DNA of 64,000 nucleotides, from the NCBI GenBank assembly GCA_958295725.1, contig OY282368.1, positions 3,258,365 through 3,322,364 on the forward strand. Reading direction: 5' to 3'. The notes under the pieces are model-generated. The model worked only from the letters and a program-made list of their open reading frames with translations. It made no database searches and was not told the origin of the DNA. This DNA is from an uncultured Alphaproteobacteria bacterium. Its GTDB lineage: Bacteria > Pseudomonadota > Alphaproteobacteria > UBA2966. A program made the translations under genes and the position numbers. Positions 14,367 to 42,647 of this stretch are shown here, in pieces (the first letter of the stretch is position 1; each line of letters starts with the position of its first letter).

Positions 14367-15017
14367 CTATGTCCCGCGCACGGCCCGGGGCTCGAGTTGG
14401 CAAGCGACGATACCCGCCAAGTGCGTCGCAAGCTTCTTGAGACGCCTTTCGAGATACTTTCTCGGCTCGGCCGCTTCCGCCATCCTCGGGATAACCTCAT
14501 TCGCCCTGGACGGGAGAAATTCGCCGAAGGGATCGATCAACACCAAATCGTCTTCATCCAACTCGCCGTGACCGACAATCTCCTCGAACGCCTTGTAAGC
14601 GTCGTGACCAATGCCCGGAAACTCTTCATCCAGCATAGACAATCCCGATTCCCCAAGTCTCTCGCGGCGCGCCTGGCAAGGGTCGTTGGCCAGGACGCGC
14701 ACATCTCCGTTCCCGGTTTGGGTGGCGACTTCGTATGCCAAGAGGCCGCTGCCGTAGTAACGATCTTTCCCGATGTCGGTCTGCGCCCTCCTCAGCGCGA
14801 CCCATTCCGGCAACTCCCCGACGCGCATCGCCACCATCCGGACACGTTTGGCCGCCTCATCACCGCTATCAGGCGCTGATTGGTTACACGGCTCGCCGCC
14901 GAACAGGTCGATGAAGCGAAACGACTTGCCCCGCTCGCATTACCAACGGACGAACTCCGCCAGAACGCCGTGCTTGAGCAGATCGCCCGCATTTCCCATG
15001 TCGTAAGTCAGCGTCAT
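14367..15017 (-). pseudogene. RlmJ-like methyltransferase-family gene interrupted by an in-frame TAA
   Basis: From ATG 15017, with GGGAGG just upstream, the frame reads MTLTYDMGNAGDLLKHGVLA and on to FVRW, then meets TAA at 14940-14942. The same frame continues without further stops for ~190 codons (CERGKSFRFIDLFGGEP ... LIDPFGEFLPSR ... EPRAVRGT) to a stop at 14367. GNAGDLLKHG and the later DPFGEF resemble the GNHADVLKH and DPPYE elements of RlmJ-type (DUF519) 23S rRNA adenine methyltransferases, so a methyltransferase is likely but not certain. One CAA-to-TAA change explains the break. Recent inactivation, readthrough or a sequencing error are all possible. Confidence 0.72.
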
Positions 15018-15058
15018 CGCCGCGCCTCCCTGATCCGTTCCGCGCCGGCGACACGTCA

Positions 15059-15146
15059 TGGCGGAGGGGGTGGGATTCGAACCCACGGTACGCAAGCGTA
15101 CACGCGCTCTCCAAGCGCGCGCCTTCGACCACTCGGCCACCCCTCC
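15059..15146 (-). tRNA. tRNA-Ser(GGA)
   Basis: The minus strand folds as a class II tRNA: acceptor GGAGGGG pairs with CCCCTCC, anticodon stem CGCGC/GCGCG encloses the loop TTGGAGA with anticodon GGA, a long variable arm follows (GTACGCTTGCGTAC region), and the T arm carries GTTCGAATC. Discriminator G and CCA are encoded at the 3' end (15059-15061). It reads UCC and UCU serine codons. It lies just upstream of the broken methyltransferase-like gene on the same strand. No integrase is adjacent. Confidence 0.97.
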
Positions 15147-28495: not shown

Positions 28496-29887
28496 ATGAG
28501 CGGGACTCCGCCGCGGCAATTGGGGGGGAAACGGTGCCCGCAGCTGCACTTCTCGGCCATTGTCGCGGTCTTGTTGCTGGTCTTTTTTGCGACCGATGTC
28601 CGTGGAGACGCGCGAGCGGGCCTGTTCGATCCACAGCAGTTCACCCTCGACAACGGGCTGCGGGTTGTCGTGATTTCGGATCATCGGGCCCCCGTCGTCA
28701 CCCACATGGTCTGGTACAAGGTGGGTGCGGCCGACGATCCGCCAGGCAGGTCCGGCCTCGCTCATTACCTTGAGCACATGATGTTCAAAGGGACGCGCAA
28801 CGTCCCGGCAGGTGAATTCTCGCGGATCGTGGCCCGACTCGGCGGCCGGGAGAACGCCTTCACGGGCCACGACTACACGGGCTATTACCAGACGATCGCC
28901 TCCCGGCACCTGGAGACGGTGATGCGGCTGGAGGCCGATCGCATGACCAACCTCGTGGTGCGCGAAGAGGACATCGCCGCCGAGCGCGAAGTCGTTCGGG
29001 AAGAGCGTCGGTCGCGGCTGGGGAACGATCCGGGCGCTCTTCTGGCCGAGCAGATGAGCGCCGCTCAGTTTCTTTCTCATCCTTACGGGCGCCCCGTGAT
29101 CGGCTGGGAGCACGAGGTGGCGGAACTCTCGCGGCGGGACCTTCTCCACTTCTATGCCGGTCATTACGCGCCGAACAACGCTCTGCTGGTCGTCGCGGGA
29201 GACATGACCCCACACCAGGCGCGTCGGCTGGCCGAGAAACACTACGGCCCCATTCCGGCGCGAGAGATCGCGACGCGCGAGCGTCCGCGGGAGCCGCCGC
29301 ATCGGGCCGCCCGGCGCGTCACGATGCGCGATCCACGGGTTCGCGTGCCGTCTTGGAGACGGACCTATCTGGCGCCCAGCGGAACGGCCGGCGAGACACG
29401 ACACGCGATACCGCTTCAGGTTCTTTCGGAAATTCTCGGAGGCGGGACGACCTCGCGCCTCTACAGGCGTCTGGTCGTCGAGGAAAAGGTGGCGAGCGGC
29501 GCCGGGGCGTCGTACAGCGGTAGCTCGATGGACCTCTCGCGCTTTTACCTCTATGGCAGCGCGCGGCACGGCGGGGGCCTCGAGACCGTCGAGGCGACGA
29601 TCGAGGAGGAGATCTCCAGGCTGTTGGAATCCGGGGTGACGGAGCAAGAGCTGCGACGGGCGAAGACCGGCATGACGGCCGACGCCGTGTTCGCCCGGGA
29701 CAGTCTGGCAACCGGCGCGCGCTTGTTCGGCGCCGCGCTGGCGGTCGGTCGCACCGCGGAGGATGTGGAGGCTTGGCCGAATCTGGTCCTCGCCGTGACC
29801 GCCGAAGACATTCTGGCGGCGGCGCGGCACGTGTTCGACGACCGGGCGTCGGTGACCGGTCTCCTGTTGCCGGAGCGGGATGGTTAA
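28496..29887 (+). CDS. M16 family zinc metallopeptidase
   Basis: A 463-residue insulinase/pitrilysin-family protein. The inverted zinc motif HxxEH is present as LAHYLEHMMFKG (residues ~88-98), with the downstream glutamate in AAEREVVREERR. An N-terminal hydrophobic segment (IVAVLLLVFFATDVRG) predicts export to the periplasm. Alphaproteobacterial loci usually have two tandem M16 genes, the second lacking HxxEH; here only the first is present and a transporter operon follows after 57 nt. ATG 28496 precedes a basic stretch typical of a signal n-region. Confidence 0.93.
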   Translation: MSGTPPRQLGGKRCPQLHFSAIVAVLLLVFFATDVRGDARAGLFDPQQFTLDNGLRVVVISDHRAPVVTHMVWYKVGAADDPPGRSGLAHYLEHMMFKGTRNVPAGEFSRIVARLGGRENAFTGHDYTGYYQTIASRHLETVMRLEADRMTNLVVREEDIAAEREVVREERRSRLGNDPGALLAEQMSAAQFLSHPYGRPVIGWEHEVAELSRRDLLHFYAGHYAPNNALLVVAGDMTPHQARRLAEKHYGPIPAREIATRERPREPPHRAARRVTMRDPRVRVPSWRRTYLAPSGTAGETRHAIPLQVLSEILGGGTTSRLYRRLVVEEKVASGAGASYSGSSMDLSRFYLYGSARHGGGLETVEATIEEEISRLLESGVTEQELRRAKTGMTADAVFARDSLATGARLFGAALAVGRTAEDVEAWPNLVLAVTAEDILAAARHVFDDRASVTGLLLPERDG

Positions 29888-41195: not shown

Positions 41196-41911
41196 CGAAG
41201 TTCCCCGGAGGTCGCCGCGGCGGGCGCGGCATCCGTGGGCCGGGCTATGCGCCCGTCGTTCAGGTGCACGACGCGGTCGCACCTGTCGGCCACCGCGGAG
41301 TCGTGGGTGATGAGCACCAGGGTCGTGTCCTCACGCGCCCTGATCTCGAACATCAGATCGATAATCTGGGACCCGGTGACCGTGTCGAGATTACCGGTGG
41401 GCTCGTCGGCCAGGACTAAAGCCGGGCCCGTGGCGAACGCGCGCGCCAGGGCCACGCGCTGCTGTTCGCCGCCGGAGAGTTGCGCCGGGTAATGGTCGAC
41501 ACGGCCGTCCAGTCCAACGGCGGCCAGACCCGCGCGGGCCCGGTCGAATGCGTCCGAAAAACCGGACAGCTCCATCGGCACGGCGACGTTCTCCAGAGCC
41601 GTCATCGCCGGGATGAGGTGAAACGACTGAAACACGATACCCACGTGGCGGCGGCGGAACAGAGCCAGCGCATCTTCGCTCAGTCCGGCGAATTCGGTGC
41701 CGGCGACCACAACCCGGCCGGCACTGACCCTTTCCAGTCCGGCGATCACCGCAAGCATGGTCGACTTTCCGGATCCCGACGGTCCGACCACGCCGACGGA
41801 TTCTCCCGTGTCGATGGCAAGGTCGATACCACGCAGGATGTTGACCTCGCCCGCCCGACTTTTCAGAGTGAGGTGCACGTTTTCCAGAACGACCATCGGT
41901 CGCGAAGGCAT
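41192..41911 (-). CDS. ABC transporter ATP-binding protein (YbbA-type)
   Basis: A 239-residue MacB/LolD-type ATPase with Walker A GPSGSGKST, signature LSGGEQQRVALARA and Walker B ALVLADEPTGNLD. It is coupled to the permease gene by ATGA overlap. ATG 41911 (MPSRPMVVLENVHLTL) is chosen; ATG 41944 is possible. It is divergent from the esterase gene, the same ybbA-tesA divergent arrangement known from enterobacteria. Confidence 0.94.
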   Translation of the reverse strand: MPSRPMVVLENVHLTLKSRAGEVNILRGIDLAIDTGESVGVVGPSGSGKSTMLAVIAGLERVSAGRVVVAGTEFAGLSEDALALFRRRHVGIVFQSFHLIPAMTALENVAVPMELSGFSDAFDRARAGLAAVGLDGRVDHYPAQLSGGEQQRVALARAFATGPALVLADEPTGNLDTVTGSQIIDLMFEIRAREDTTLVLITHDSAVADRCDRVVHLNDGRIARPTDAAPAAATSGELR

Positions 41912-41960
41912 GGTTGAACGATCGAGGACGACGCGGGCGGACATGTTAAGGCGATGTCGA

Positions 41961-42647
41961 ATGGTCTCGATGGGATCGCGCGGGGCGCCCGGGCGGCGCG
42001 CGCGCCTCTACCATATAGGTCGCATTTCGACCTTCGCCATCCTTGCCGCGTGTCTCGTGCCCGGAATCGGTGTCCGTTCACTGTCGGCGGACCCGGAGTT
42101 CGTCATCGTGGCGTTGGGCGACAGTCTGACGGCCGGATATGGTCTTGTGGCCGCGGACGCCTTTCCGGTCCGGCTGGAATCCGCGTTGCGCAAGGCGGGA
42201 AAGCGCGTCCGCGTGATCGACGCCGGCGTGTCCGGCGATACCACGGCCGGCGGCCGTGCGAGGCTGGACCGGGTTTTAGCCGACGAGCCCGATGCCGCGA
42301 TCGTCCAGCTTGGCGCCAACGATGCGCTGCGCGGGATCGATCCCGAAGAGACGTCGGGAAATCTCGCGGCCATTCTCCAGGTCCTGAAGAAGCGCGGCAT
42401 TCACGTGTTACTCGCCGGCATGTTGGCGCCGCCGAATCTTGGCGATCGCTACGCCAAGGCCTTCAACGCCATCTATCCGGCACTTGCGGCGACACACGAC
42501 GTGTTGCTGTATCCGTTCTTTCTCGACGGTGTCGCGGCGAATCCGGGGCTCAATCAAGCGGATGGCGTTCATCCGACCGCCGAGGGAGTTGAACGTATCG
42601 TGAAGGGGATATTCCCCTACGTCATCCGCGTCATCGACACTGAATAA
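41961..42647 (+). CDS. Arylesterase / TesA-like GDSL lysophospholipase
   Basis: A 228-residue secreted GDSL hydrolase. The N-terminal region RISTFAILAACLVPGIGVRSLSA predicts a signal peptide, so it is periplasmic. The catalytic serine is in ALGDSLTAGYGL, followed by the GVSGDTT block, GANDALRG, and the Asp-His pair in QADGVHPT. TesA-type enzymes hydrolyse lysophospholipids and acyl-thioesters. ATG 41961 has AAGG upstream; in-frame ATGs at 41943 and 41970 are close alternatives. It is divergent from the YbbA-type ATPase. Confidence 0.93.
   Translation: MVSMGSRGAPGRRARLYHIGRISTFAILAACLVPGIGVRSLSADPEFVIVALGDSLTAGYGLVAADAFPVRLESALRKAGKRVRVIDAGVSGDTTAGGRARLDRVLADEPDAAIVQLGANDALRGIDPEETSGNLAAILQVLKKRGIHVLLAGMLAPPNLGDRYAKAFNAIYPALAATHDVLLYPFFLDGVAANPGLNQADGVHPTAEGVERIVKGIFPYVIRVIDTE

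Follow-up and report, generated by a model that had tools for sequence, protein, structure and literature searches.

A probable decaying pseudogene of an RlmJ-related methyltransferase-like family beside tRNA-Ser in an uncultured alphaproteobacterium, and the HEPN-like gene next to its intact relatives

The analyzed window, a 64,000-nt stretch of the genome of an uncultured alphaproteobacterium, carries on its minus strand the remnant of a methyltransferase-like gene adjacent to a tRNA-Ser gene (Table 1). The reading frame starts with ATG at 15017 and contains exactly one internal stop: 25 residues precede the internal TAA and 190 open codons follow it. Such openness exceeds chance. Only 19 of 5,000 dinucleotide-preserving shuffles of the 190 codons downstream of the internal TAA were stop-free, and 67 of 5,000 shuffles of all 216 codons contained at most one stop. 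The plus-strand reading of 14367-15017 is also nearly open, but the family evidence lies on the minus strand, and this reading was rejected. Both flanks of the internal TAA align with one protein family, which bears out the description of the gene as methyltransferase-like and family-like on both sides of the stop in an earlier note on this DNA. The AlphaFold2 model of the read-through protein was poor (pLDDT 46.5). The G+C content at the three codon positions was 0.65, 0.43, and 0.73, compared to 0.74, 0.54, and 0.81 in the SDR gene and 0.70, 0.49, and 0.85 in the epimerase gene; the values are below those of both genes and of the intact relatives at all three positions.

Table 1. Features of the methyltransferase-like locus and of related loci outside the window.
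Feature	Sequence	Position	Strand	Remarks
Methyltransferase-like remnant reading frame	window	14367..15017	-	216 codons plus terminal stop TAA
In-frame TAA, codon 26	window	14940..14942	-	Gln in six of seven relatives, His in one
GGGAGG, Shine-Dalgarno-like	window	15025..15030	-	7 nt before ATG
YDMGNAGDLLKHGV block, counterpart of RlmJ motif X	window	14964..15005	-	alignment; motif definition from excerpts of PMC3814359
FRFIDLFGGEP, motif-I-like stretch	window	14889..14921	-	alignment; motif named by analogy
LIDPFGEF, at the place of motif IV	window	14517..14540	-	alignment and hhalign
Downstream ATG	window	14835..14837	-	opens 156 aa; start of no intact relative
Junction, ~69 family codons missing in frame	window	14465..14466	-	after window residue 184
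tRNA-Ser(GGA)	window	15059..15146	-	ends 41 nt before ATG 15017, same strand
Tail-to-tail pair, Vicinamibacteria-class genome	L034	8163-10030		
Tail-to-tail pair, Vicinamibacteria-class genome	L035	8042-9787		
Tail-to-tail pair, Vicinamibacteria-class genome	L036	5225-6957		
Tail-to-tail pair, Vicinamibacteria-class genome	L037	6751-8573		
Tail-to-tail pair, Vicinamibacteria-class genome	L038	807-2511		
HEPN-like gene beside the L058 scrap	L058	4319-5165		
Distant HEPN-like relative, window's genome outside the window	L060	4217-4894		E=1.1e-25
Distant HEPN-like relative, window's genome outside the window	L061	6340-7089		E=1.1e-22

Searches of 78 related genomes yielded two matches, the window's own genome and one with an RlmJ-type protein. 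Six of the 385 genomes of the class matched (its own, a relic in G299, and four weak RlmJ-type matches, one of them shared with the 78-genome search), as did two of the 398 genomes of the phylum (its own and a weak match in G446). With a larger alignment, 289 genomes of the class gave its own, G299, and weak matches in G029 and G199; these draws of 78, 385, 398, and 289 genomes overlap. The proteins of G047, G175, G272, and G203 were recognized by eye as RlmJ-type. A collection of genome contigs, scanned with two peptide patterns only, contained copies L009, from an uncultured Vicinamibacterales MAG, and L010, from the same alphaproteobacterial contig as the G299 relic, while the downstream 156 aa, used as sole query, had no match in this collection. 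A family alignment searched against 193 genomes of the L009 class matched six, namely G754 (the genome of L009) and five genomes with intact copies (G937, G938, G922, G920, and G921), and the larger alignment matched G754 and, weakly, G936 among 396 genomes of the L009 phylum. The weak matches in G446, G029, G199, and G936 had E values of 5e-4 to 4e-5.

Within the window's class, just one further copy was confirmed, L010 of G299, and it is more damaged than that of the window: a few N-terminal residues are followed by a jump to RYYGS, frame breaks, and a stop. In the L009 copy, the main frame is without the motif-I region, and an N-terminal piece is present in tandem at L009 6001-6160, with the first of the two truncated, as would result from partial duplication. 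The same genome contains L058, where an isolated, frame-broken scrap of the N-terminus adjoins a HEPN-like gene whose frame is open. Since five of the nine copies or scraps are intact, loss of the methyltransferase-like gene is common. A phage or plasmid origin was considered and rejected. No match was found in 50,697 phage records, in two viral-contig scans with a few peptide patterns only, or, for the window copy only, among PHROGs, and 72,556 plasmid records contained no match to the window copy or the L009 protein.

The intact copies (n=5) encode 277-292 aa. Damage to the window copy was measured against the five intact copies and one further relative whose C-terminus is complete. Relative to L009 and L014 alike, it is 69 residues short between positions 184 and 185; this stretch of about 69 codons (about 207 nt), directly after the DPF motif, is retained by all six relatives. 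In addition, the alignment revealed about 12 extra residues between the motif-I-like stretch and RYYGS. The proposal of a single TAA in an otherwise intact gene, with no frameshift or other damage, is thus correct for the number of in-frame stops and wrong for the rest of the gene. The last 32 residues of the window copy match the end of the family, with a local score of 43 to L009 (0 of 300 shuffles as good) and 40 to the end of L014 (1 of 300), a weak score of 27 to L017 (20 of 300), and a non-significant 22 to L016 (122 of 300). MAFFT placed this tail in the middle of the family, a placement that was rejected because the score in the middle of L014 was only 24, compared to 40 and 43 at the end.

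Upstream of the deletion, 82 aligned residues are the same in all five intact copies; the window copy keeps 65 of these and has changed 17. When each of the intact copies was left out in turn, it kept 83/84 to 83/95. Over the columns covered by both, 37 of 51 invariant residues are kept in the window copy and 41 of 51 in L009; the loss in the window copy may partly reflect lineage distance. In an eight-row tree, the end branches of the three broken copies are the longest (0.53, 0.66, and 0.83 versus 0.09-0.39). The window copy groups with L009 at 89/88, a value obtained with eight partial rows and below the program's mark.

A functional shortened variant, which lost the ~69 codons in frame, kept its tail, and has a later strain-specific stop as its sole real lesion, would agree with the in-frame deletion, the family-end-like tail, and the open frame downstream of the stop. 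We consider it improbable, since the missing stretch is kept by all six relatives with a complete C-terminus and most of the 34 family-invariant columns downstream of the junction are lost. Nevertheless, because both length changes are in frame and 190 codons are open, a shortened protein may have been produced before the stop appeared.

The position of the stop is occupied by Gln in L014, L015, L017, L018, L009, and the L058 scrap, and by His in L016. The Gln codon is identical in all six sequences and differs from TAA at two bases, so that the suggested change of CAA to TAA names the right residue but not the codon found in the relatives. The presence of only one stop in 216 codons could mean that a functional gene was misread or misassembled. 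This explanation is very unlikely, given the two-base distance of the relatives' Gln codon and a deletion of about 207 nt, which is not explicable as a base-calling error. Equally unlikely is that the stop is read through, or translation restarted at ATG 14837, to make a protein on purpose. The frame is open downstream of the stop, and this ATG opens 156 aa, but all five intact relatives start upstream of it, and a natural start at this ATG, which the earlier note had named as grounds for refutation, was thus seen in none of them. A restart here would yield a product devoid of the counterparts of motifs X and I, read-through would still leave the protein about 69 residues short, and TAA is an ordinary stop in the host genome. 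A changed genetic code was rejected, since TAA terminates 2 of the 30 likely window genes, picked by codon composition, with a separate gene directly after each. These two genes (28496-29887 and 41697-42647), each followed by a separate gene in the same frame, resemble one long interrupted frame but are not.

The methyltransferase-like gene was absent from all six closest genomes, two of the same genus and four of the same family (G001-G006). In the congener G002, the tRNA-Ser gene and the epimerase gene beyond it are conserved (84% over 1348 nt), and homology with the window stops exactly at the tRNA-Ser 3' end, past which G002 has a transposase-like reading frame (recognized by eye). In G001, the closest relatives of the SDR and of the epimerase are on different contigs, and blastn detected nothing significant between the window gene and the stretch before the SDR relative. 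The pattern in G002 and G001 fits arrival at a tRNA flank, and the window gene was presumably acquired horizontally. An island bounded by a repeated tRNA end was considered and rejected, as an attachment-site repeat, that is, a second copy of the tRNA 3' end, was not found within the 64-kb window. Neither a HEPN-like partner gene nor defence-type neighbors (Septu, HEC-01) were identified in the window.

The window copy is in itself an ordinary pseudogene, and the stop codon is just one of its several defects. A pseudogene carries one or more disabling lesions that its intact homologues lack; here these are the codon-26 stop and the ~69 missing codons. Translation from ATG 15017 would end after 25 residues, and a product made by passing the stop would still miss the ~69 residues after the DPF motif; the loss would remove most of the C-terminal part together with a hydrophobic segment of LLFVLN type that probably forms the next core strand. 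We infer that the function has been lost. In full, the gene is very probably a decaying pseudogene from a rare, uncharacterized family of RlmJ-related methyltransferase-like genes that probably reached its place beside tRNA-Ser by horizontal transfer. This reading is based on the stop, the in-frame deletion, the lack of the gene in the six closest genomes, the existence of intact copies elsewhere, and the failure to find in the host genome the second copy that the earlier note had proposed to look for, as well as on the changed invariant residues, the long end branches, the lower G+C content, and the lack of a HEPN-like partner in the window. Counting against it, a ribosome-binding-site-like sequence is still in place, the tail match is uneven among relatives, and MAFFT placed the tail differently. 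The choice offered earlier between a recent lesion and a stop that is read through presupposed the absence of other damage and falls with it, given the ~69 missing codons.

The best PDB match of the window copy was RlmJ (phmmer, E=0.57), and a PDB profile search with the family returned RlmJ entries as sole matches (E=1.7-1.9). The family profile aligned with that of RlmJ over 149 columns (hhalign probability 71, E=3.7e-5), a comparison of only 5 versus 3 sequences. RlmJ is the 23S rRNA m6A2030 methyltransferase represented by PF04378. No PF04378 match was detected in the window copy, in the three of five intact relatives tested, or anywhere in the window's genome, while the control search found this domain in 3 of 14 genomes. 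The window copy had no match to Pfam, NCBIfam, or PHROGs models, and the three intact relatives gave only chance-level matches to unrelated families in Pfam (best E=0.18) and NCBIfam (best E=0.025).

According to excerpts of the RlmJ study (PMC3814359), motif X is located at the N-terminus (Asn12, Asp15, Lys18, and His19), Tyr4 and His6 are needed for activity, their mutants being inactive, and motif IV is DPP(Y/F). The family resembles RlmJ in the GNxxDxxKH block, which contains counterparts of the motif-X Asn, Asp, Lys, and His, in the order of the motif-like stretches, and in the length of the intact copies. Unlike RlmJ, it has DPFF at the place of motif IV in all five intact relatives and DPFG in the window copy and L009, and no counterpart of Tyr4 and His6 was seen by eye, both positions lying outside the hhalign alignment. 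An RlmJ orthologue was rejected, because motif IV is not DPP(Y/F) and PF04378 was not matched; the family is termed RlmJ-like here, a distant cousin and not RlmJ. Intact homologues are presumably SAM-binding proteins that act on a nucleic acid. The label "RlmJ-type" thus holds as a distant resemblance in phmmer and hhalign searches and no further. With DPFF/DPFG at motif IV and no Pfam or NCBIfam fit, an unmethylated 23S A2030 does not follow; the predicted consequence of the loss is unsupported, and the ideas of lost 23S methylation and of stop read-through should be dropped.

All five intact copies are arranged tail-to-tail with a HEPN-like gene, with an overlap of 7 nt or a gap of 18-22 nt. 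L036 and L037 represent one locus in sister genomes (flanks ~90% identical), which leaves four independent loci. The HEPN motif is R-x4-6-H. The four aligned partners share an invariant R and H spaced as R-x4-H (VVRxQIVHG) and a YWIAYEAA block, and by this motif the partner gene is putatively HEPN-like. The HEPN-like gene at L036 5225-5995 is itself broken by one in-frame TAG. HEPN-like matches were found in 7 of 10 genomes searched, including two in the window's genome outside the window, one homologue of which gave a sub-threshold match to PF18735 (E=0.13), and two in G754 away from L009. Such relatives also occur without a methyltransferase-like gene, which counts against an obligatory pair.

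On the other side of the methyltransferase-like gene, L034 encodes a HEC-01A-type ATPase (E=1.1e-97), L036 PtuA (E=1.5e-141) and PtuB (E=3.6e-46) of Septu, L037 a PtuB remnant (E=1.3e-14), L038 a protein with a weaker PDC-S11 match (E=1.2e-11), and L035 a phage-type integrase. The reading frame at L037 8438-8722 starts like L036 PtuA (by eye) and otherwise matches PtuB, as if the middle of Septu had been deleted. The broken L009 copy comes after a NERD-helicase similar to the one in DRT loci (E=2.1e-52), and its protein had a marginal PADLOC match to mad2 (E=0.005).

The tail-to-tail arrangement at four independent loci and the defence-type genes ahead of several copies suggest that the methyltransferase-like and HEPN-like genes form an undescribed defence-associated pair. 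No methyltransferase-HEPN pair was found in the literature titles or abstract openings listed, which are no proof of absence in print. More tentatively, and with the balance somewhat against it, the window could hold a wrecked half of an undescribed two-gene module, probably anti-phage, made up of an RlmJ-like nucleic-acid methyltransferase or methyltransferase-fold sensor (D-P-F-F) and a putative HEPN-like ribonuclease, with copies in Vicinamibacteria beside HEC-01A and PtuA/PtuB, and with the window copy and L010 as dead captures in Alphaproteobacteria. The result is a small protein family without Pfam or NCBIfam match in the members tested and linked to a HEPN-like gene in all five intact copies and to defence-type genes in several. 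This pair, located outside the window, is a concrete two-gene candidate and a more interesting lead than the window pseudogene.

Among known systems, RlmJ differs from the family also in that the latter is linked to a HEPN-like gene. The partners resemble HEPN ribonucleases in the R-x4-H motif, but none reached the cut-off of curated HEPN models. Three-Cys-motif partner proteins (TcmP) are methyltransferase-like, with a DPFG-like motif and a GS-containing motif, and may resemble the family in these features. The three intact relatives had no relevant NCBIfam match at E values up to 5. As for Septu and HEC-01, PADLOC models gave no match when compared with four partners and one intact methyltransferase-like protein, but intact copies adjoin components of these systems in L034, L036, and, as a PtuB remnant, L037.
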